Shown piece by piece: positions 5,226 to 38,347 of a DNA stretch of 57,964 bases. Under the pieces are notes generated by a model. It did no database searches. It was not told the DNA's origin and saw only the letters and a program-made list of their open reading frames with translations. Within the stretch, counting starts at the first letter, position 1. Each line of letters starts with the position of its first letter. The stretch comes from Rhodopila globiformis (lineage in GTDB: Bacteria > Pseudomonadota > Alphaproteobacteria > Acetobacterales > Acetobacteraceae). The position numbers were made by a program, and so were the translations under genes. The stretch is from positions 1 to 57,964 of the forward strand of contig NZ_NHRY01000258.1 of NCBI RefSeq assembly GCF_002937115.1. Direction: 5' to 3'.

Positions 5226-6212
5226 TTAAAGCGAACCGGGCGGCCGTGGCCTCATCACACTATCGAGGCACTGCTCGATCCGGTCCGCATTTTCCCATAC
5301 GAGACCGACACAAATGACGGTGACGCGGGCGCGGAACTCCGGCGGCAGGCGCACTGCGTCCTTGGGCGTTGTCACCAGCCTCGCGTCCAGCGCCGCCGCC
5401 GCACGTTCCAGTGCCGCGAGGTCGCCTGCCGTGTAGGGATGATGGTCCGGGAACGGCCGGGCCGCCGTGACCACGGCGCCGGCCTGCCGCAGGGGGGCGA
5501 AGAATTTGTCCGGGATGGCGATGCCGGCAAACGCCAGGACCCGCTGCCCGGCCAGGACGCCAATCGCCGTATCCTGCCGCAGATCGGCCCGCAGCACCGG
5601 CAGGTGGGGCGGCAGCCGGGCCAGTGCGCCGGTGGCGTCGGCGCCGATGAGCACCACCGCCTGGCAGCGGGCAGCCGCGGCGGCAATTGGCTCGCGCAGC
5701 GGCCCCGCCGGCAGCACCCGGCCGTTGCCGAAGCCGGTGCGGCCGTCAATCACCAGGATCGAGAAGGTTTTCGCCAGGGTCGGGTTCTGCAGCCCGTCAT
5801 CCATCAGCAGCACCTGCGCGCCCGCCGCCACCGCTTCCCGGGCGCTTGCCGCCCTGTCGGCGCCAATCCAGGTCGGGGCGGCCGCGGCCAACAACAGAGC
5901 CTCATCGCCGACGCGGGCGGCCGGATCATCCGCCGCCACGCGATGCACGCCGCGCGAATCCCCACCATAGCCGCGCAGCAGCACATGCACGGTATGGCCG
6001 CGATCGGCCAGGCGGCGGGCGAGGTCCAGCACCAGCGTCGTCTTGCCGGCGCCACCGACGGTGACGTTGCCGCAGCAGATCACCGGCACCGGCGCCTGCC
6101 ACCCGGGCCGCGCCACCCGGCGCGCGGTCATGGCCGCGCCGACGGAAGACAGCGGCGACAGCAGCCGGGCCAGCAGACCATCGCGTGACCAGAAGGCGGG
6201 CGCGCCGGGCAT
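5226..6212 (-). CDS. lpxK: tetraacyldisaccharide 4'-kinase
   Basis: A 328-residue LpxK, the inner-membrane kinase that phosphorylates the 4' position of the tetraacyldisaccharide to give lipid IVA, the sixth step of lipid A synthesis. The P-loop is unmistakable at residues 48-59 (GNVTVGGAGKTT). The downstream LLRGYGG and LLMDDGLQNPTL motifs are family signatures; the latter contains the Walker B Asp pair. The C-terminal LVTTPKDAVRLP segment is also typical. It starts 3 bases after the waaA stop codon on the same strand, so the two are almost certainly translated from one message. That places Kdo transfer and lipid IVA formation under joint control. Confidence 0.96.
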   Translation of the reverse strand: MPGAPAFWSRDGLLARLLSPLSSVGAAMTARRVARPGWQAPVPVICCGNVTVGGAGKTTLVLDLARRLADRGHTVHVLLRGYGGDSRGVHRVAADDPAARVGDEALLLAAAAPTWIGADRAASAREAVAAGAQVLLMDDGLQNPTLAKTFSILVIDGRTGFGNGRVLPAGPLREPIAAAAARCQAVVLIGADATGALARLPPHLPVLRADLRQDTAIGVLAGQRVLAFAGIAIPDKFFAPLRQAGAVVTAARPFPDHHPYTAGDLAALERAAAALDARLVTTPKDAVRLPPEFRARVTVICVGLVWENADRIEQCLDSVMRPRPPGSL

Positions 6213-6215
6213 CGT

Positions 6216-7493
6216 TCAGGCCAGGGGCACGTGCGACGGCAGCAGCGACAGCAACGTCTCCGCCGTCTGTTTCGGCAGTTCGGCGTGGCGGCGCGCCGAG
6301 GCGGCGGCCCGTTCGCCAAGCTGCCTGCGCAGCGCCGGGTTGTCCAGCATGCCGGCGACAAAGCCCGCCAGGCCGTCGGCATCCGCGACCTCCACCAGCC
6401 CGCCGGCCTGCCGCAGCAGGGCGACGTGCGCCGTGAAGTTGCCGGTATGGGGACCAACCGCGATGGCGCAGCCCAGCCGCGCCGGTTCCAGCAGATTCTG
6501 GCCGCCGCCCGGCGCGATCAGGCTGCGGCCGACGAACGCGATGGGCGCGACGCGGTACCACAAGCCCAACTCACCCATCGTGTCGGCAATCCAGATGCCC
6601 TGGTGCGGCAGTCCGTCGCCGGCGCTCCGGCGCGGCGCGTTCAGCTCGGCCGCCAGCGCGGCGCCGCGGTCCGGATGGCGCGGCGCGATGATGGTCAGCA
6701 ACCCCGGATGCGTCGCGGCGACCCGCGTGTGAACGGCGGCAACGAGCACCTCCTCCCCCGGATGGGTGCTGGCCGCCAGCCACACCGGCCGATCGGCCAG
6801 CTCGATGGTAAGGCGGGCGAGCTCCTGCGGATCCGCGGGCAGGTCCGGGGCGGCGAATTTCAGGTCGCCCGGCGCCTCGACGCTCCGGGCGCCGAGGAGC
6901 CGCAGCCGCCCGGCATCCTGTTCCCCGCGCGCCTGGATGCGGTCGAAGGCGCCCAGCAGGTGGCGGGCCAGGCCGGGGAACCGGCGCCAGCGGGTGAAGC
7001 TGTGGTCGGACATGCGGGCGTTCACCAGCATCAGCGGGATGCGGCGCGCCCGGCAGGCGGCAAGCTGGTTCGGCCACAGCTCACTTTCCACGAAGCACGC
7101 CACGTCCGGCCGCCAGTGCGACAGGAAGCGATCGACCCAGACGGGGACATCGAGCGGCGCGAAGCGGTGCAGCACATGGCCGTCCAGCCCCAGCTCCGGA
7201 AGGCGCTGCGCCAGCAGGGCCTGTGAGGTCGCGGTGCCGGTGCTCAGCAGCACGGTCGCCCGGCCGCGCAGCGCCGCCAGCACCGGCAGGATGGACATCG
7301 TCTCGCCGACGCTGGCGGCGTGCATCCAGATCAGCGGGCCGGGCGGCCGCGGCGTCGGATCGATGCCGCGGCGTTCGGGGAGGCGGGCCGCGACCTCAAG
7401 CCCCCTGGCGGCGCGGCGGCTCAGGTTCAGCCGCAGGGCCGGAGCCAACAGCGTCGCGGCGACCGCCCAGCCGGCGCGGACGGCGCCGATCAT
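6216..7493 (-). CDS. waaA: 3-deoxy-D-manno-octulosonic acid (Kdo) transferase
   Basis: A GT30 family Kdo transferase of 425 residues (also called kdtA), a membrane-anchored enzyme that adds Kdo from CMP-Kdo to lipid IVA. An N-terminal hydrophobic anchor is followed by HAASVGE, whose Glu (residue 64 with this start) is the expected catalytic base. ESELWPN, IWIADTMGELGLWY and GGGQNLLEPA are the usual nucleotide-sugar and acceptor motifs. The ATG at 7493 was chosen over a GTG at 7502 because it forms an ATGA overlap with the stop of the upstream acyltransferase gene, the hallmark of translational coupling. Whether it transfers one or two Kdo residues cannot be told from sequence. Confidence 0.95.
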   Translation of the reverse strand: MIGAVRAGWAVAATLLAPALRLNLSRRAARGLEVAARLPERRGIDPTPRPPGPLIWMHAASVGETMSILPVLAALRGRATVLLSTGTATSQALLAQRLPELGLDGHVLHRFAPLDVPVWVDRFLSHWRPDVACFVESELWPNQLAACRARRIPLMLVNARMSDHSFTRWRRFPGLARHLLGAFDRIQARGEQDAGRLRLLGARSVEAPGDLKFAAPDLPADPQELARLTIELADRPVWLAASTHPGEEVLVAAVHTRVAATHPGLLTIIAPRHPDRGAALAAELNAPRRSAGDGLPHQGIWIADTMGELGLWYRVAPIAFVGRSLIAPGGGQNLLEPARLGCAIAVGPHTGNFTAHVALLRQAGGLVEVADADGLAGFVAGMLDNPALRRQLGERAAASARRHAELPKQTAETLLSLLPSHVPLA

Positions 7494-8164
7494 GCCGGAC
7501 ACAGCGCATCCGCCTGGTCCGCAACCTGGTTGAGCGCCGCGGTGATGGCAGGGACGGCGGCCTGCCAGTCGTCGCGGCTGACGAAAATCGCCGGACCGCA
7601 GACGAGGACGCCGCGGCCGAACGGCAGCGGCAGCGCCATCCGGTCCCAGGTGCGGAGCTGGATGCGCCGGCTGGTGCGGGCGGCGCAGGGCAGCACCGGC
7701 ACGCCCGCCAGGGCCGCGAGCTGGGCGACGCCGGGGGCAGCCTGGCGGCGCGGTCCGCGCGGCCCATCCGGCGTGATGCCGATCTGGCCGCCCCTGGCGA
7801 GTGCCAAGGCCAGGCTGCGGAGCCCGGCCGCGCCGCCGCGGGACGTGGAGCCGAAGATTGGCTCGATGCCGAAGCGCCGCACCACCGTGCCGATGAACCG
7901 CCCGTCCCGGTGGTGGCTGACCAGGGTGTAGATCGGAGTCGGGCGATACAGCGGCAGGGTGCGGGCGATCAGCACCAGCTTCGAAATCAGCGGCAGGAAT
8001 TCGTGCCAGAAGGCGAACACGGCCGGCGTGCCGGCGCCGTAGTGGTCAAAATGCTCCCGGCCATGCACCGTCCAGCGCGTCGTGCGCAGGGCGATCGCAA
8101 GGTACAAGCCAAGGACTCTCGCCAGCAGGGCCTGGACCTGTGACGTGCGCAGCAGGGACTTCAT
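7490..8164 (-). CDS. DUF374 lysophospholipid acyltransferase-family protein
   Basis: A 224-residue protein of the DUF374 branch of the PlsC/LPLAT acyltransferases. The active-site block is AFWHEFLPL (the His of the HX4D-type motif), and a second conserved block is ITPDGPRGPRR, the substrate-binding PDGPRGP signature of DUF374. One hydrophobic segment near the N-terminus may anchor it to the inner membrane. In many alphaproteobacteria this gene directly precedes waaA and lpxK, which suggests a role in acylating lipid A or a related precursor. No activity is proven for the family as far as I know. Its stop codon overlaps the waaA start in an ATGA arrangement. Confidence 0.88.
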   Translation of the reverse strand: MKSLLRTSQVQALLARVLGLYLAIALRTTRWTVHGREHFDHYGAGTPAVFAFWHEFLPLISKLVLIARTLPLYRPTPIYTLVSHHRDGRFIGTVVRRFGIEPIFGSTSRGGAAGLRSLALALARGGQIGITPDGPRGPRRQAAPGVAQLAALAGVPVLPCAARTSRRIQLRTWDRMALPLPFGRGVLVCGPAIFVSRDDWQAAVPAITAALNQVADQADALCPA

Positions 8165-8278
8165 TAGCCCGCGGGTAGCACGCAGGGGGATGTTGCGGAA
8201 GTGTGGTGACGAGGAATTCCCAAGCGGAAATCTCGTTTGTCATGAATTCAGCGGATGTCCGCCCGGCCCGGCGCGATG

Positions 8279-9154
8279 CTACGCCAGGGCGCGTCCGGCA
8301 AGCCGTTCCAGCACGCGCAGGGGCGATTGCTCGGGATCCAGCATCGATTGCACCGGCACATGGAAGGTCTGCTCCAGCATCATGTGTCCCGACAGCGCGG
8401 CGTGCGATACCTGATCGGTGAAGCATAGCCAGGTCGATCCGGGCGAAAACGTCCGGGCGGTGTAGGATGCCTGCCGCTGGTAGTCGGCATCGAGCTTCAT
8501 CCGGTCGTGCAGGGCCAGCATCATCTGGTCATAAGCGGATTGCACGCCCTTGGTCAGGCCCAGAAGCGCATACAGCCGGGCGCGCAGCGGGGCCGGAGAC
8601 GGCAGCGCCGGCAGGAAACCCGCCGCAACGCTCTCGAAGGGTTCGCCGATGCGCCACGCACGGGCGGCGCTCGCCTGCGGCAGGACCGTGAACAGCCGCA
8701 GGATGCGGGCGCCGCCGATCGGCCGGGAAGGGAAGGCGTCCACGTGCAGCCGGCGGTCGTCATGCCGGGGCGAATAGGCCCGGCCGGCGATTTCGGCCGG
8801 CCGGAAGCTCGTCCGGCCGGCCCAGAGCGTATCGGCATAGGGAATCAGCAGCCCACGCAGCATCGATTCGGCCGACCGGGCGAAGCGGGCCAGCATGGCG
8901 GCCAGAAGCGCGGGATGTTCGGCCGAACCGCTGACGCGACCGGAGGCCGGGTCGAAGCTGATGTTCTTCCGGCTGTTGTCCAGCAGGGCCGGCGACAGCA
9001 GGACGGCTTCCTCGGGCAAGGTTGTGAACGCAAGACCGGTCAGGCAGACGACCCGGCCGGCTTCCAGCGCGGCAACCGCATGGCGGCCGAGGTCAGGGTC
9101 AAAGGGACCATTCCAATCTGCAATCGGCAGTGAAACAACGATGTCGCCCGACAT
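8279..9154 (-). CDS. kdoO: candidate Kdo hydroxylase, Fe(II)/2-oxoglutarate-dependent (KdoO-like)
   Basis: A protein of about 291 residues that I match from memory to the Kdo hydroxylase family (KdoO of Burkholderia and Yersinia), which converts the terminal Kdo of LPS to D-glycero-D-talo-oct-2-ulosonic acid (Ko). The key stretch is RRLHVDAFPSRPIGG, with a His-x-Asp iron-binding pair. A later SHAALSGHMMLEQTF supplies the likely distal His. The frame is open further upstream to a GTG at 9244. The ATG at 9154 was preferred because the sequence after it (DIVVSLPIADW) reads like a protein N-terminus, but the start is uncertain. It lies 114 bases upstream of the DUF374-waaA-lpxK run on the same strand, which fits a role in modifying the inner core. 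Confidence 0.75.
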   Translation of the reverse strand: MSGDIVVSLPIADWNGPFDPDLGRHAVAALEAGRVVCLTGLAFTTLPEEAVLLSPALLDNSRKNISFDPASGRVSGSAEHPALLAAMLARFARSAESMLRGLLIPYADTLWAGRTSFRPAEIAGRAYSPRHDDRRLHVDAFPSRPIGGARILRLFTVLPQASAARAWRIGEPFESVAAGFLPALPSPAPLRARLYALLGLTKGVQSAYDQMMLALHDRMKLDADYQRQASYTARTFSPGSTWLCFTDQVSHAALSGHMMLEQTFHVPVQSMLDPEQSPLRVLERLAGRALA

Positions 9155-9442
9155 GGTTCGCTCGCATGTGATTCCGGTGGTTGACCAGGCTGGCCAATCC
9201 GGAAGCATGGAGATCCCGGCGCTAGGCGGCTTGATAAATGTCACTTGGCCGGTATTCGACTGATGAAGTGCTTGCGACCTCTACCGGGTCGGGGAGAGAA
9301 TGCCGAGACAAGGCATTGCGAGCGCTCCCGGCCGGATCGGCGTTCGCCAGGGGCAATTTGCATGTCCGGATAGGGACTCTGGCGGGGCAGGGTGTTCGCC
9401 TCCCTCGCCCGGGCCGGGACACGCCCAGCCATGGCGGGACGG
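9155..9442. other. gene-free stretch upstream of the Kdo hydroxylase gene
   Basis: No supported gene. It holds the presumed kdoO promoter and a small stem AATGCC/GGCATT near 9299-9316, and it runs into the palindromic repeat at 9443. Confidence 0.4.
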
Positions 9443-9620
9443 TATAGCAGACCGCAGGTAAGTTGGGACGTAGAGGCGGCCCGTCTTCTTCGTCATGGCC
9501 CGGCGCGTCCGGGCCACCTGTTCCAGCACGCGTGCCGCGACACGTGGCCCGGACGCGCCGGGCCATGATGAGGAGGGGGCGCCGTCGCCCTGTCTCAACC
9601 GACCTGCGGGTTTGCTGTAG
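9443..9620. repeat. nested palindromic repeat element, family 1 copy A
   Basis: A 178-bp MITE-like unit. The outer ends are TATAGCAGACCGCAGGT and its approximate complement ending TTTGCTGTAG. The inner core is a perfect 24-bp inverted repeat (9494-9517 with 9544-9567) around the loop CTGTTCCAGCACGCGTGCC. It shares this architecture with the copies at 14550 and 37950. The arms read CGCG where copy B reads CTTG, a compensated change present in both arms. Confidence 0.8.
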
Positions 9621-9645
9621 TCTTATCCTGGTACCGTCGCAGCGT

Positions 9646-10728
9646 TCAGCCCATCAGCGGCACCAGATGCGACAGGAACGTCTCGGCACAAGCTCGCCAC
9701 GAATACCGCTCGGCATGCACCCGGCAGGCCCGCCGATCGGCGGTCAGGGCATCGAGGGCGGCGGCCCGCAGGTCGGCATTGACCGAGCCGATCTTGCCCT
9801 CGGCGTCGGCCAGCACGTCCTTCGGCCCGGTTACCGGAAAGGCGGCGACAGGCGTGCCACAGGCCAGCGACTCCAGCAGCACCAGGCCGAACGTGTCGGT
9901 CAGGCTGGGGAAGACGAAGACGTCGGCCCCGGCATAGGCGCGCGCCAGCGGCTCGCCGTGGCGCGGGCCGGTAAACGTGACGTTCGGATACTCCCGCCGC
10001 AGCGAGGACAGCTGCGGGCCGCCGCCGACGACAACCTTCGAGCCGGGCAGGTCGAGGTCGAGGAAGGCGCCGATGTTCTTCTCCACCGCCACCCGGCCGA
10101 CATAGATGAAGATCGGCCGCGGCAGGTCCCACTCCTCGCGCGGGAACGGCTTGAACAGGTCCAGGTCCACGCCGCGCGACCAGGACCGGATGTTCTGGAA
10201 CCCCCGCGAGGCCAGCTCATCGCGCAGCGACTGCGTCGCGACCATGGTACCCTGGCTCGCGCCGTGGAAGCGCCGCATCCAGGCATAGATCGGCCGCACC
10301 GGCAGCCGGGTGCGGGCGTTGATGTATTCGGCAAACCGCGTGTGGAACGCCGTGGTGAAGGCAAAGCCGGTGCGCTTCGCCCAGCTTCGCGCCGCCAGGC
10401 CGAGCGGGCCCTCGGTCGCGATGTGCAGCGCGTCCGGCCTGAAATCCTCGATCATCCGCACCAGCCGCCGCCGCGGCAGCAGCGACAGTGCGATGTCCGG
10501 ATAGGTCGGGCACGGCATGGTGCGGAACCGGTCGGGACCGATGATCTCGACGACATGGCCCATTGCCCGCAGCTCGTCCGCCACCGTGGTCAGGGTACGG
10601 ACGACGCCGTTGACCTGGGGCTTCCAGGCGTCGGTGACAATCAGGATGCGGTGGGAGGGTGCTGGCGGCAGCACGTCGATGACGCCCGCGAGGTCCACAA
10701 GGGGAAGAGAGTCAGGCAGTTGCGGCAA
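9646..10728 (-). CDS. GT4 glycosyltransferase, candidate diacylglycerol glycosyltransferase (Agt-like)
   Basis: A 360-residue GT-B fold glycosyltransferase of family GT4. The N-terminal domain opens with ILIVTDAWKPQVNGVVRT, the acceptor-side glycine-rich loop. The C-terminal domain contains IYVGRVAVEKN and the donor-site motif DTFGLVLLE (Glu-x7-Glu type). The reading frame begins at a TTG (10728) that overlaps the end of the preceding phosphoesterase gene by 17 bases, so translation is probably coupled. In several Alphaproteobacteria a GT4 gene next to a PlcP-type phospholipase C makes monoglycosyl-diacylglycerols that replace phospholipids under phosphate limitation. By that context I infer this role. 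A mannosyl- or sulfoquinovosyl-transferase of the same family cannot be excluded. Confidence 0.82.
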   Translation of the reverse strand: MPQLPDSLPLVDLAGVIDVLPPAPSHRILIVTDAWKPQVNGVVRTLTTVADELRAMGHVVEIIGPDRFRTMPCPTYPDIALSLLPRRRLVRMIEDFRPDALHIATEGPLGLAARSWAKRTGFAFTTAFHTRFAEYINARTRLPVRPIYAWMRRFHGASQGTMVATQSLRDELASRGFQNIRSWSRGVDLDLFKPFPREEWDLPRPIFIYVGRVAVEKNIGAFLDLDLPGSKVVVGGGPQLSSLRREYPNVTFTGPRHGEPLARAYAGADVFVFPSLTDTFGLVLLESLACGTPVAAFPVTGPKDVLADAEGKIGSVNADLRAAALDALTADRRACRVHAERYSWRACAETFLSHLVPLMG

Positions 10729-11530
10729 CCTTGTTCAAGCGCGGCTGGAAGAAGGAGAGCCGGTTGAGCGCCGCCCAGTCGATCAGCTCCAGGCGGCCGT
10801 CGTGGTGCTCCACCAGCGCGGTGCAGCTTTCCACCCAGTCGCCGTCGTTCAGGTAGAGGATGCCCTGGACCTCGCGCATTTCGGCGTGATGGATGTGGCC
10901 GCAGACCACGCCGTCGAAGCCGCGGCGGCGGGCTTCCGCGGCCAGGGCGACCTCGAACCGGTCGATCGCCTTGACCGCTTCCTTTACCTGGCGCTTCAGC
11001 CAGGCTGACAGCGACCAGTAGGGATAGCCGAGGCGAAGACGGACCACGTTGAACCAGCGGTTGAAGCTCAGCGCCACGGTGTAGGCCCAGTCGCCGAGCA
11101 GGGCCAGGAACCTGGCATAGCGCACGACATTGTCGAACTCGTCGCCATGCATCACCAGCAGGCGCTTGCCGTCGGCGGTGGTGTGCTCGGAGTCGCGGCT
11201 CATTTTGATGCCGCAGATTTCCAGCCCGAACGGCAGCCAGGTGCGGAACATCTCGTCGTGGTTGCCGGGGATGTAGGTCACGTTGGTGCCGGAACGGGCG
11301 AGGCGCACGATCTGCTTCAGCACGTCGTCGTGGCTCTTGTCCCAGTACCAGGACTTGCGCAGCCGCCAGCCGTCGATGATGTCGCCGACAAGAAACAAAT
11401 GCTGGCAGCTCGACCTGCGCAGGAAATCCGCCAGGAACTCACTGCGGCAGCCACGGGTACCCAGGTGCGTATCGGAAATAAAAATCGCTCGATACGCGGG
11501 TGGCAAACTGATCTGCGACATGGCGTTCAT
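10712..11530 (-). CDS. plcP: calcineurin-like metallophosphoesterase, candidate phospholipase C PlcP
   Basis: A 272-residue binuclear metal phosphoesterase. All metal motifs are present: Asp20-Thr-His22 (ISDTHLG), GD at 49-50 with DGW, GNHDE at 89-93, a VMHGDEFD block and GHIHHAEM. It would usually be labelled UDP-2,3-diacylglucosamine diphosphatase (LpxH-like). The WRLRKSWYW and GDWVESCTALVEH blocks match, from memory, the Sinorhizobium PlcP type, which removes the phospho-head group of phosphatidylcholine or -ethanolamine to give diacylglycerol. The overlapping glycosyltransferase gene and the nearby diacylglycerol-kinase gene support PlcP over LpxH. A candidate Pho box lies 113-130 bases upstream of its start. 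The lpxH alternative remains possible but is less likely in an alphaproteobacterium, where LpxI usually serves. Confidence 0.8.
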   Translation of the reverse strand: MNAMSQISLPPAYRAIFISDTHLGTRGCRSEFLADFLRRSSCQHLFLVGDIIDGWRLRKSWYWDKSHDDVLKQIVRLARSGTNVTYIPGNHDEMFRTWLPFGLEICGIKMSRDSEHTTADGKRLLVMHGDEFDNVVRYARFLALLGDWAYTVALSFNRWFNVVRLRLGYPYWSLSAWLKRQVKEAVKAIDRFEVALAAEARRRGFDGVVCGHIHHAEMREVQGILYLNDGDWVESCTALVEHHDGRLELIDWAALNRLSFFQPRLNKVAATA

Positions 11531-11642
11531 TCGAAGGTGCCCATTCCCGCGCTATCATTTCCGGCTCAGCACATATGCTTCGACTCCTGCCATCCGCACG
11601 TGAAGGTTTAATGACGCGAGTGTTCTTTACCGCAATACATGA

Positions 11643-11660
11643 ATGTAACTTGAATGTCAT
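11643..11660 (+). promoter_or_regulatory. candidate Pho box between plcP and the lipid kinase gene
   Basis: ATGTAAC (11643-11649) and ATGTCAT (11654-11660) are 7-base direct repeats spaced 11 bases apart. Each matches the PhoB half-site CTGT(C/A)A(T/C) at six of seven positions. The orientation favours the plus-strand gene, though it lies within the divergent region and could serve both. No clear -10 box was seen at the expected distance. Confidence 0.5.
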
Positions 11661-11782
11661 AGCACTGCCACGACAACAACATGACGGCGTGCCATGCGGT
11701 AGTCTTTTCACCGCTCGTTTATTGGCGGATTCCACCGGTTCACTGCACCTTCCCCGCACCACACCTGGCACCGGCGTCGAGG

Positions 11783-12652
11783 ATGATCGTTATATTCAAC
11801 CCGGCCGCCGGCCGCCGGCGGGCGTACCTGCTCTGGCGCGTCCTCGACGTGCTGGCCGCCAACGGCGTGCGGCTCGACATTGCCGAGACGCATCGCGCCG
11901 GCCATGCCGAGGCGCTGGCGCGCGAGGCGGCGCGGCGCGGTGAGCCGATGGTGGTGGCCGCCGGCGGCGACGGGACGATCGCCGAGGTGGCGAACGGGTT
12001 GATGGGAACCACTGCCCGGCTTGGCGTCATTCCGCTGGGCACCGCCAACGTGCTGGCGCATGAGCTTGGCCTGCCGTTTGCCCCCCGGTCGGTCGCCGCC
12101 GCGCTGGCCTTCGGCCGCACCTGCACCCTGTGGCCCGGCCAGGCCAATGGCGCCGACGGGACCCGGCTGTTCGTGCAGATGCTGGGCGTCGGCTTCGATG
12201 CCCAGGTGGTGCACAACCTGCCGTTCACGCTGAAGAAGGTGCTCGGCAAGGGCGCCTATGTGCTGCAATCGCTGCGGGAGATGCCGCGCTACCCTTTTCC
12301 GTCGATCCGCATGCGGATCGATGACATCGAGACCGAGGCCGCGAGCGTCATCATCAGCAAGGGCCGGCTGTACGGCGGCAGCTTTCATGTCGCTGCGGAT
12401 GCGGTGCCCGGCGAGCCCGGGTTCTCCGTCGTGCTGTTCGAGCATGCCGGCCCGGCCGCCGCGATGATGTATGGCGCCGCGCTGCCGCTCAACCTGCTTG
12501 GGCGGGCGCCGGGGGTGCGGCACGTGCGGGCGTGCCAGATCGAATTCCTGCAGAACGTTGCCGTGCCGGCACAGGCGGATGGCGATCGTGCGGGATACGC
12601 GCCGCTGTCCGTCTGCGATGCGCCGGCGCCGATCCAGGTGGTGGTGGGGTAG
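11783..12652 (+). CDS. diacylglycerol kinase-family lipid kinase
   Basis: A 289-residue protein of the DgkB/YegS lipid kinase family. The catalytic domain shows IVIFNPAAGRRRAY at the N-terminus, the nucleotide-binding GGDGTIAEVANG block near residue 60, and LGTANVLAHEL, the order typical of the family. Such kinases phosphorylate diacylglycerol (or a related lipid) to phosphatidic acid, returning it to phospholipid synthesis. The ATG at 11783 places the NPAAG motif right at the start as in relatives; an upstream ATG at 11681 would add 34 residues of unlikely sequence. It is divergent from the PlcP/GT4 pair and shares the intergenic region with the candidate Pho box. It may counterbalance PlcP by consuming the diacylglycerol it releases. 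Confidence 0.88.
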   Translation: MIVIFNPAAGRRRAYLLWRVLDVLAANGVRLDIAETHRAGHAEALAREAARRGEPMVVAAGGDGTIAEVANGLMGTTARLGVIPLGTANVLAHELGLPFAPRSVAAALAFGRTCTLWPGQANGADGTRLFVQMLGVGFDAQVVHNLPFTLKKVLGKGAYVLQSLREMPRYPFPSIRMRIDDIETEAASVIISKGRLYGGSFHVAADAVPGEPGFSVVLFEHAGPAAAMMYGAALPLNLLGRAPGVRHVRACQIEFLQNVAVPAQADGDRAGYAPLSVCDAPAPIQVVVG

Positions 12653-12869
12653 AACGATCCCGTGCCAGGTGGGCATGCGCGATCATGTTGCACAGGTAAA
12701 TTCAGCGGTAAGAGATCGCTTCGCCGCGCCGCCAGCCTGATACGACTCCAGCCGGCATCCAGGTGCCGTACAGCGATTCCGGCACCGTCATGATAGCGAC
12801 TGGCAGGCCCTCGCCCCGGCATTGAACAGCCGGCGGCGGGTGGCCGGCCCAACCAAGGGAGCTGCCCCC

Positions 12870-13841
12870 ATGGACCACCACCACCCGCACAGCCCCATCA
12901 CCCCGCTGCCGGCGCACCGCCGGGTGGGACTCGCGCTGGGCAGCGGATCGGCGCGCGGGCTCGCCCATATCGGCGTCCTGGGCGCGCTGGAGGAAGCCGG
13001 CATAGCCGTGGACGCGATCGCCGGCTCCAGCATCGGCGCGCTGATCGGCGCGATCCATGCCGCCGGGCGGCTGGACGGGTTGAAGGCGTTCTTCCGCTCG
13101 CTCGACTGGCTCGGCATGATGCGCTTCGTCGACGTGGTGCTGCCGAAGTCCGGCCTGATCGACGGCGCCCGCATCAGCGCCCTGGTGCGCGAACACGTTG
13201 CCGCCCGGAGCATCGAGGCACTGCCAACGCCGTTCGCCGCGGTGGCAACCGACCTGGGCAGCGGCGAGCGGGTCGTGCTGCGCAGTGGCGACGTCATCGA
13301 TGCGGTGCGCGCCAGCATCTCCGTCCCGGGCATTTTCACGCCGGTGCGCTACGGCAGCCGCATCCTGGTCGATGGTGGCGTCGTCGATCCGGTGCCGGTT
13401 GCGGCAGCGCGGGCACTAGGACCGGCGTTCGTGATCGCAGTGGACCTCAACCATGGCGTCGTCGCGCACCGGGCCGCACCGCGACGGCCGGCCCACAAGA
13501 CGGCGGCTGCCAGTTCCGCCATCGCCGCCTGGGCGCGCAGTATCCGCCAGGCGACGGTGGACCTGCCGGCCAGGCCGAGGAACAGCGAGACGCCGGCGAC
13601 CGCGCAGCTTGCCCGCTGGTCGGGGGCGGAGGGACCGCTGCCGAACATCTTCGACGTCCTGCTTACCTCCATCAACGTCATGGAAACCCGCATTACCGAG
13701 AGCCAGTTGGCCATCGATCCTCCGGACCTGCTGATCCGCCCGCCGCTGGCGCACATCGGCCTGCTCGACTTCGCCCGCGCCGAGGAGATCGTCGAGATCG
13801 GCTACGAGGCGGCACGTGGCCAGGTCGCCGCGGTACGGTAG
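12870..13841 (+). CDS. patatin-like phospholipase family protein
   Basis: A 323-residue patatin-type serine hydrolase with a Ser-Asp dyad. The oxyanion loop is LALGSGSARGLAHIG, the nucleophile is Ser54 within GSSIG, and the Asp is in ILVDGGVVDP (Asp168). This is the RssA/NTE-like arrangement found in cytosolic or membrane-associated lysophospholipases. A His-rich start (MDHHHPH) precedes the domain. The ATG at 12870 has AAGGGAG eight bases upstream; the frame is open further up without a better site. It lies just downstream of the lipid kinase on the same strand, about 220 bases apart, and fits a cluster concerned with membrane lipid turnover, although co-transcription is not shown. Confidence 0.9.
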   Translation: MDHHHPHSPITPLPAHRRVGLALGSGSARGLAHIGVLGALEEAGIAVDAIAGSSIGALIGAIHAAGRLDGLKAFFRSLDWLGMMRFVDVVLPKSGLIDGARISALVREHVAARSIEALPTPFAAVATDLGSGERVVLRSGDVIDAVRASISVPGIFTPVRYGSRILVDGGVVDPVPVAAARALGPAFVIAVDLNHGVVAHRAAPRRPAHKTAAASSAIAAWARSIRQATVDLPARPRNSETPATAQLARWSGAEGPLPNIFDVLLTSINVMETRITESQLAIDPPDLLIRPPLAHIGLLDFARAEEIVEIGYEAARGQVAAVR

Positions 13842-14549: not shown

Positions 14550-14725
14550 CTACAGCAGACCGCAGGTTAGTTGGGACGCAGACGGCCTGTCTTCATCGTC
14601 ATGGCCCGGCTTGTCCGGGCCACCTATTCCAGCACGTGTGCCGCGACAGGTGGCCCGGACAAGCCGGGCCATGACGCGTGAGGTGCGCCGTCGCCGTGTC
14701 TCAACCAACCTGCGGTCTGCTGTAG
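14550..14725. repeat. nested palindromic repeat element, family 1 copy B
   Basis: The cleanest copy, 176 bp. The outer ends CTACAGCAGACCGCAGGTT and AACCTGCGGTCTGCTGTAG are exact complements. The inner arms (14598-14625 with 14648-14675) are a perfect 28-bp inverted repeat. The right end lies three bases from the stop codon of the TIGR02302 gene, so it may act as its transcription terminator. Confidence 0.85.
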
Positions 14726-37949: not shown

Positions 37950-38347
37950 CTACAGCAGACCGCGGGTTGGTTGAGACACGGCGACGGCGCACCTCACTCG
38001 TCATGGCCCGGCTTGTCCCTACGGGATGCACACATCTCGGAAACGGTCCGCCGCTGCGTTTCCCTTTCGTCATGGCCCGGCTTGTCCGGGCCACCTATTC
38101 CAGCACGTGTGCCGCGACAGGTGGCCCGGACGAGCCGGGCCATGACGATGGGGGAACGCTCTTGGCGCCCAGGCAAGCACTTGATTTTACGGTCATTTCC
38201 GACTCGTTTCCAGGATGTGTGCATTGCGTAGGGCTCGTCCGGGCCACCTATTCCAGCACGTGTGCCGCGACAGGTGGCCCGGACAAGCCGGGCCATGACG
38301 ATGAAGACAGGCCGTCTGCGTCCCAACTAACCTGCGGTCTGCTGTAG
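37950..38347. repeat. nested palindromic repeat element, family 1 copy C (expanded)
   Basis: The ends CTACAGCAGACCGCGGGTT and AACCTGCGGTCTGCTGTAG match copy B in reverse orientation, but the interior is 398 bp. It holds two family-1 cores (38069-38146 and about 38234-38300) and a further inverted pair, 38017-38044 with 38206-38233 (GGATGCACACATC and GATGTGTGCAT). It is thus a palindrome inside a palindrome inside a palindrome. Confidence 0.8.

Follow-up and report, generated by a model that had tools for sequence, protein, structure and literature searches.

The window analysed here, the whole 57,964-nucleotide stretch of Rhodopila globiformis contig NZ_NHRY01000258.1, carries a three-gene locus that probably serves the remodelling of membrane lipids under phosphate starvation. 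On the minus strand, a gene for a 272-amino acid metallophosphoesterase of the PlcP type (plcP, 10712..11530) is followed by a gene for a GT4 glycosyltransferase (9646..10728) in the position of agt. On the plus strand, dagK (11783..12652) encodes a soluble lipid kinase, DagK, of 289 amino acids when counted from ATG 11783. PHO-box-like repeats directed towards plcP and towards dagK lie in the region between them. A preliminary description of this DNA had recognised these three genes and a patatin gene (12822-13841, plus strand, in the list of open reading frames), and the translations bear out all four where it had placed them. Its statement that the kinase gene faces the plcP-GT4 pair has to be turned round: the two sides are divergent.

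For comparison, the neighbours of plcP were surveyed across the Alphaproteobacteria in two sets of loci. The family set (Acetobacteraceae) comprised 80 regions from 88 genomes with a plcP match, and the class set, from the rest of the class, comprised 80 regions from 78 of 118 matching genomes, mostly one per family, 5 of which were dropped for a PlcP match below 170 bits, leaving 75. Among loci with enough sequence, 76 of 78 family and 69 of 74 class loci had a co-directional GT4 gene 3' of plcP, and a DAGK_cat gene stood back to back with plcP in 56/77 and 37/73, respectively. Chance placement would not give neighbours that recur in most loci and in about half of them. The patatin gene follows the kinase gene in the window, as had been said, but no patatin match was found in the 80 family or the 75 class loci (upstream reach up to about 4 kb, in some loci less), and it was ruled out as a member of the locus.

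ATG 11783 is the likely start of dagK, because the DAGK_cat domain match begins there (at about 11780), and not ATG 11681, at which the frame opens 10 bases past the PHO-box-like repeat. A scan of positions 9100-12900 for sigma-70-type promoters found none.

The phosphoesterase and the GT4 glycosyltransferase

LpxH, the UDP-2,3-diacylglucosamine diphosphatase, is the usual automatic name for proteins such as the phosphoesterase of this locus, and both are calcineurin-like phosphoesterases. The preliminary description had preferred PlcP on the strength of the overlap with the GT4 gene and of two sequence blocks, WRLRKSWYW and GDWVESCTALVEH, both of which are found in the translation. The protein is of the PlcP type and not LpxH. 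The two NCBIfam LpxH models reached 45.0 and 37.0 bits on it, far below their cut-offs of 134 and 190.35, and the Pfam family Metallophos scored 46.2 bits (cut-off 21.5). The metal-site blocks DTH, GD, GNHD, HGD and GHIH are all present, with GNHD where LpxH of E. coli has GNRD.

A tree of LpxH, PlcP and the window protein, as the preliminary description had proposed, led to the same assignment. Among its 105 rows, the window protein and the Sinorhizobium meliloti protein, which are 53% identical, fell into one clade of 94 rows with a support of 98/94, and the E. coli, Proteus and Aeromonas LpxH proteins remained outside it on long branches. Of the 80 family rows this tree included 12; the bootstrap was still unsettled, and the placement of several long branches is uncertain. 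The genome also encodes LpxI (LpxI_C, 167.8 bits, elsewhere in the Rhodopila genome). The protein neither clusters with true LpxH nor stands in a genome with no other UDP-diacylglucosamine hydrolase. The closest named relatives of the phosphoesterase among the matches listed come from five Rhodopila metagenome genomes (87-88% identical).

A divergent LpxH acting as UDP-2,3-diacylglucosamine hydrolase, with the locus serving lipid A synthesis, is a highly improbable reading of these data. The curated families with top scores and the solved structures that were matched do carry the name LpxH, as do relatives in public records, and the minus strand continues past the GT4 gene with genes that would suit lipid A synthesis. 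At positions 5226-9244 it holds a Kdo hydroxylase gene (NCBIfam, 370.1 against a cut-off of 300), a DUF374 gene and two open reading frames that resemble what we take to be kdtA and lpxK. A kdtA homologue also occurs up to 4.2 kb downstream, 3' of plcP-GT4, in a minority of the other loci (16/67 family, 9/71 class). Against this stand the model scores, the separation in the tree with the S. meliloti protein inside the window clade, and the GNHD block. LpxI, moreover, was found in 117 of 120 family genomes, whereas plcP matches occurred in 88 of the 120 (and in 118 of the 289 genomes of the class-wide sample, weak and partial matches included). Automatic annotation of these genes as LpxH is thus misleading.

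The S. meliloti gene used here adjoins genes for an acyl-homoserine lactone synthase and a LuxR-type regulator, and from these neighbours we take it to be SMc00171. Within 5 kb of it there are no GT4 or kinase neighbours of the kind seen in the window. PMC3596328 lists SMc00171, called phospholipase C, among the members of the Pho regulon. The window PlcP would hydrolyse phospholipids to diacylglycerol (DAG).

The glycosyltransferase matches Glyco_transf_4 and Glycos_transf_1 above the Pfam cut-offs, and none of the NCBIfam glycosyltransferase models reaches its cut-off on the protein. That its gene stands in the agt position, as had been suggested, is borne out by these two domains and by a place directly downstream of plcP that is kept across loci. 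The 17-base overlap with plcP reported for the pair requires TTG 10728 as the start of the GT4 gene; with the in-frame GTG 10698 instead, the overlap gives way to a gap of 13 bases. The protein is 45% identical to the GT4 encoded after plcP in a 1.4-Mb genome of 33% GC that resembles SAR11 (L134), and this was its sole match of the kind to a possible Agt. The order of the two genes in the window agrees with the type-2 plcP-agt arrangement of PMC4796936. There, a SAR11 enzyme gave rise in E. coli to mono-hexosyl and glucuronosyl DAG. We suppose that the window GT4 would add a sugar or a sugar acid to DAG, giving a glycolipid.

Several observations on the surroundings of such genes may be added. 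Just past the 3' end of the GT4 gene lies one of four copies of a 94-nt palindromic, REP-like intergenic repeat (window positions 9489-9582, 14595-14688, 38066-38159 and 38219-38312), and the other copies are 74-88% alike to the first. Plasmid-borne plcP followed by a glycosyltransferase gene, with no adjacent kinase, was seen on a Roseomonas mucosa plasmid (L122) and on a Sphingomonas plasmid (L124). On a plasmid of Mitsuaria sp. 7 (L293), a plcP-type gene lies directly upstream of ppk1 (polyphosphate kinase), which is followed by a Ppx/GppA gene. On a Fuscovulum blasticum plasmid (L292), a more distant phosphoesterase gene (37% identity) precedes one annotated as ceramide glucosyltransferase, after which come a gene for a VTT-domain protein and a further glycosyltransferase gene.

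The divergent kinase

The kinase matches both domains of the soluble lipid kinases of the YegS/Rv2252/BmrU type above the Pfam cut-offs (DAGK_cat, PF00781, 98.9 bits; YegS_C, PF19279, 42.6 bits), narrowly exceeds the cut-off of TIGR00147 (119.2 vs. 118.65 bits) and contains the motif GGDGT, which it has in common with DgkB and YegS. Its assignment to the plcP-GT4 pair in the preliminary description is upheld by recurrent linkage and by phylogeny. Wherever enough upstream sequence was available, the linked kinase was divergent from plcP (56/56 family and 37/37 class loci), and by a hand tally 29 of the 56 families sampled elsewhere in the Alphaproteobacteria contributed linked class kinases. 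A divergent kinase was likewise present in 69 of 76 loci of named close relatives, taken from the best 80 of 572; Acidocella aminolytica 101 (= DSM 11237, L273) and Acidocella facilis ATCC 35904 (L259) share the layout of the window. In a tree built by a quick method from a quarter of the linked family rows, with 40 chosen unlinked paralogues, all 49 linked rows fell into one clade of 63 rows (SH-aLRT 98) together with 14 unlinked rows, and the 26 other paralogues stayed outside.

The kinases also differ in a C-terminal motif. YegS and DgkB have DGE at this place, and the DGE of kinases of this type is the proposed catalytic base. The window kinase has DGD instead, as do 56/56 family and 34/36 class linked kinases; all 26 paralogues outside the clade have DGE in that C-terminal part, and the 14 unlinked rows within it are mixed. 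In addition to this motif, the position next to plcP sets the window kinase apart from DgkB and YegS.

From its domains and neighbours we infer that DagK phosphorylates DAG to phosphatidic acid. It is distinctly unlikely that the kinase acts instead on a ceramide or sphingoid base, on phosphatidylglycerol or on a glycolipid, in which case the locus would have no DAG-recycling step. The DAGK_cat family does extend to acylglycerol and sphingosine kinases, to which weak matches were obtained; YegS, which is said to act on phosphatidylglycerol, scores as well as DgkB, and the DGD motif, where YegS and DgkB have DGE, sets this lineage apart. At the same time, the match that spans the protein is to DgkB (residues 3-275), and one neighbour is expected to release DAG, the other to consume it.

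The distribution of kinases raises a second alternative, in which PlcP-Agt remodelling is read correctly and DagK is a separate housekeeping recycler of DAG from other sources, e.g. head-group transfer to periplasmic glucans, linked to plcP through a shared substrate and not through co-regulation. A need for a general recycler would agree with the absence of DgkA matches (PF01219) from the Rhodopila genome and from all 120 family genomes searched, vs. 8 of 14 controls. The window kinase is the only DAGK_cat match of the Rhodopila genome, and an adjacent DAGK_cat match is present in 64 of the 88 plcP-bearing family genomes; in 41 of these 64 no other was found. Linkage is also broken in many genomes, and the 14 unlinked rows share the kinase clade. 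However, 9 of the 88 genomes had no DAGK_cat match at all, which argues that such a kinase is not universally needed, and the repeats that face dagK, described below, speak for co-regulation. We consider this alternative rather unlikely.

The shared upstream region and the division of diacylglycerol

Upstream of dagK, three half-sites (TGTAAC, TGTCAT and TGCCAC) at 11-bp spacing form a PHO-box-like repeat at 11644..11671 on the plus strand. The pstS-like gene of the Rhodopila genome is preceded by a similar region, in which TGTCAT-N5-TGTCAT occurs with 0 mismatches, and in Acidocella aminolytica the box facing dagK is perfect. The repeat facing plcP (11600..11617, minus strand) has the non-canonical form GTCAT-N6-TTCAC; a weak second candidate in this direction lies at 11670..11686 on the minus strand, with 2 mismatches to TGTCAT-N5-TGTCAY.

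Both forms were counted in the 58 linked family loci. The exact pattern GTCAT-N6-TTCAY was found facing plcP in 32/58 loci, with a mean of 0.0 in 20 shuffles and 0 matches in 464 kb of DNA flanking the same loci. Facing dagK, TGTCAT-N5-TGTCAY was found, when no more than 2 mismatches were allowed, in 30/58 loci (mean of 1.0 in 20 shuffles), and its 36 matches compare with 0.30 expected from the flanks; the shuffle and flank controls leave the kinship among the loci in place. In the class loci with a kinase, the canonical form occurred in 8/37 towards plcP and in 12/37 towards dagK (shuffles 0.3 and 1.1). In family loci L040-L110 we also observed a GTAT that is conserved in part (60-75% at each base, 41 sequences) about 38-41 nt past the start of the plcP-facing repeat and preceded by a CG-rich block; this may be a -10 region or a second site.

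Repeats directed towards both plcP and dagK suggest that the two sides are induced together by PhoB when phosphate is short, and not controlled in opposite ways. Several results weigh against this. The repeats are weaker in the class loci than in the family loci. The plcP-side repeat, conserved as it is at 11-bp spacing, is non-canonical, its pattern was picked by comparing the very loci in which it is counted, and a canonical PHO-box score alone did not pick out this form; genome-wide, the exact pattern gave 3 matches and its reversed control likewise 3, i.e. no excess. Boxes facing away from plcP are not strictly tied to dagK, since 6 of the 22 family loci without a linked kinase still have a canonical-like one there (shuffles 0.1). 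Finally, plcP without a linked kinase is common (21/77 family and 36/73 class loci), so that the kinase is an addition to the plcP locus and is not required.

Data from another organism bear on both the induction and the novelty of the kinase. In Pseudomonas putida BIRD-1, PlcP and DagK are PHO-dependent and belong to the lipid-remodelling proteins enriched at low phosphate, according to PMC5082522; its section on the phoBR mutant names PlcP and not DagK, a further point against joint control. The enrichment speaks for co-induction and makes the presence of a kinase in this set of proteins less novel. The preliminary description, which had not seen a reversible switch by way of such a kinase described for these loci, is to be narrowed to that extent. 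The BIRD-1 data are proteomic, and the divergent locus is not described in the passages considered of that article. A literature search found no description of a divergent plcP-agt and dagK locus, which is weak evidence of absence as few subscription journals were covered. What is new here is the kinase back to back with plcP, recurrent across the family and the class.

PlcP-Agt remodelling as such is known for PlcP of S. meliloti, for the marine type-2 plcP-agt loci (PMC4796936), for Methylosinus trichosporium OB3b (PMC9239053) and for PA3219-PA3218 of P. aeruginosa (PMC8528852). The window locus has in common with these systems a phosphoesterase of the PlcP clade, the GT4 gene that follows and a PHO-box-like repeat towards plcP, and adds the divergent DAGK_cat kinase on a shared upstream region. 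The papers on PlcP remodelling considered here treat DAG as an intermediate in the making of phosphate-free lipids. The word "kinase" is absent from the main text of PMC4796936, PMC9239053, PMC8528852 and PMC9457565.

Taken together, gene content, phylogeny, gene order and orientation and the repeats make it probable that this is a phosphate-starvation lipid-remodelling locus with DAG as its branch point, the three activities, the control of both sides by PhoB and the direction of flow being read from these features. PlcP would remove the phosphate-bearing head group of membrane phospholipids to give DAG, on which the GT4 would place a sugar or a sugar acid to yield a phosphate-free glycolipid. 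DagK, transcribed divergently from this shared region (about 250 bp), would convert DAG to phosphatidic acid, which would re-enter phospholipid synthesis. PhoB would probably act on PHO boxes of opposite orientation to activate both sides, and the kinase would thus be made during remodelling. Its likely job would be to prevent a build-up of DAG, to return part of the freed backbone to phospholipids that the cell cannot do without, and to speed recovery once phosphate is back. The reversible switch of the preliminary description is thereby modified, as the data suggest a division of DAG between glycolipid and phosphatidic acid and not a simple reversal.

A broader proposal, which we put forward tentatively and with less than even confidence, is that many Alphaproteobacteria use a two-way, PhoB-controlled promoter to drive production and glycosylation of DAG in one direction and its phosphorylation in the other, with a DGD-type kinase lineage that replaces DgkA and sets the ratio of glycolipid to phospholipid.

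If this proposal holds, a starving cell would trade its phospholipid and not simply lose it, part of the DAG becoming glycolipid and part being rebuilt as chosen phospholipids. A kinase beside plcP in 29 of 56 other families, probably co-induced with it, would imply a division of DAG. Such a division would offer an explanation, open to experiment, of how cells retain necessary phospholipids during remodelling, and of how they recover.

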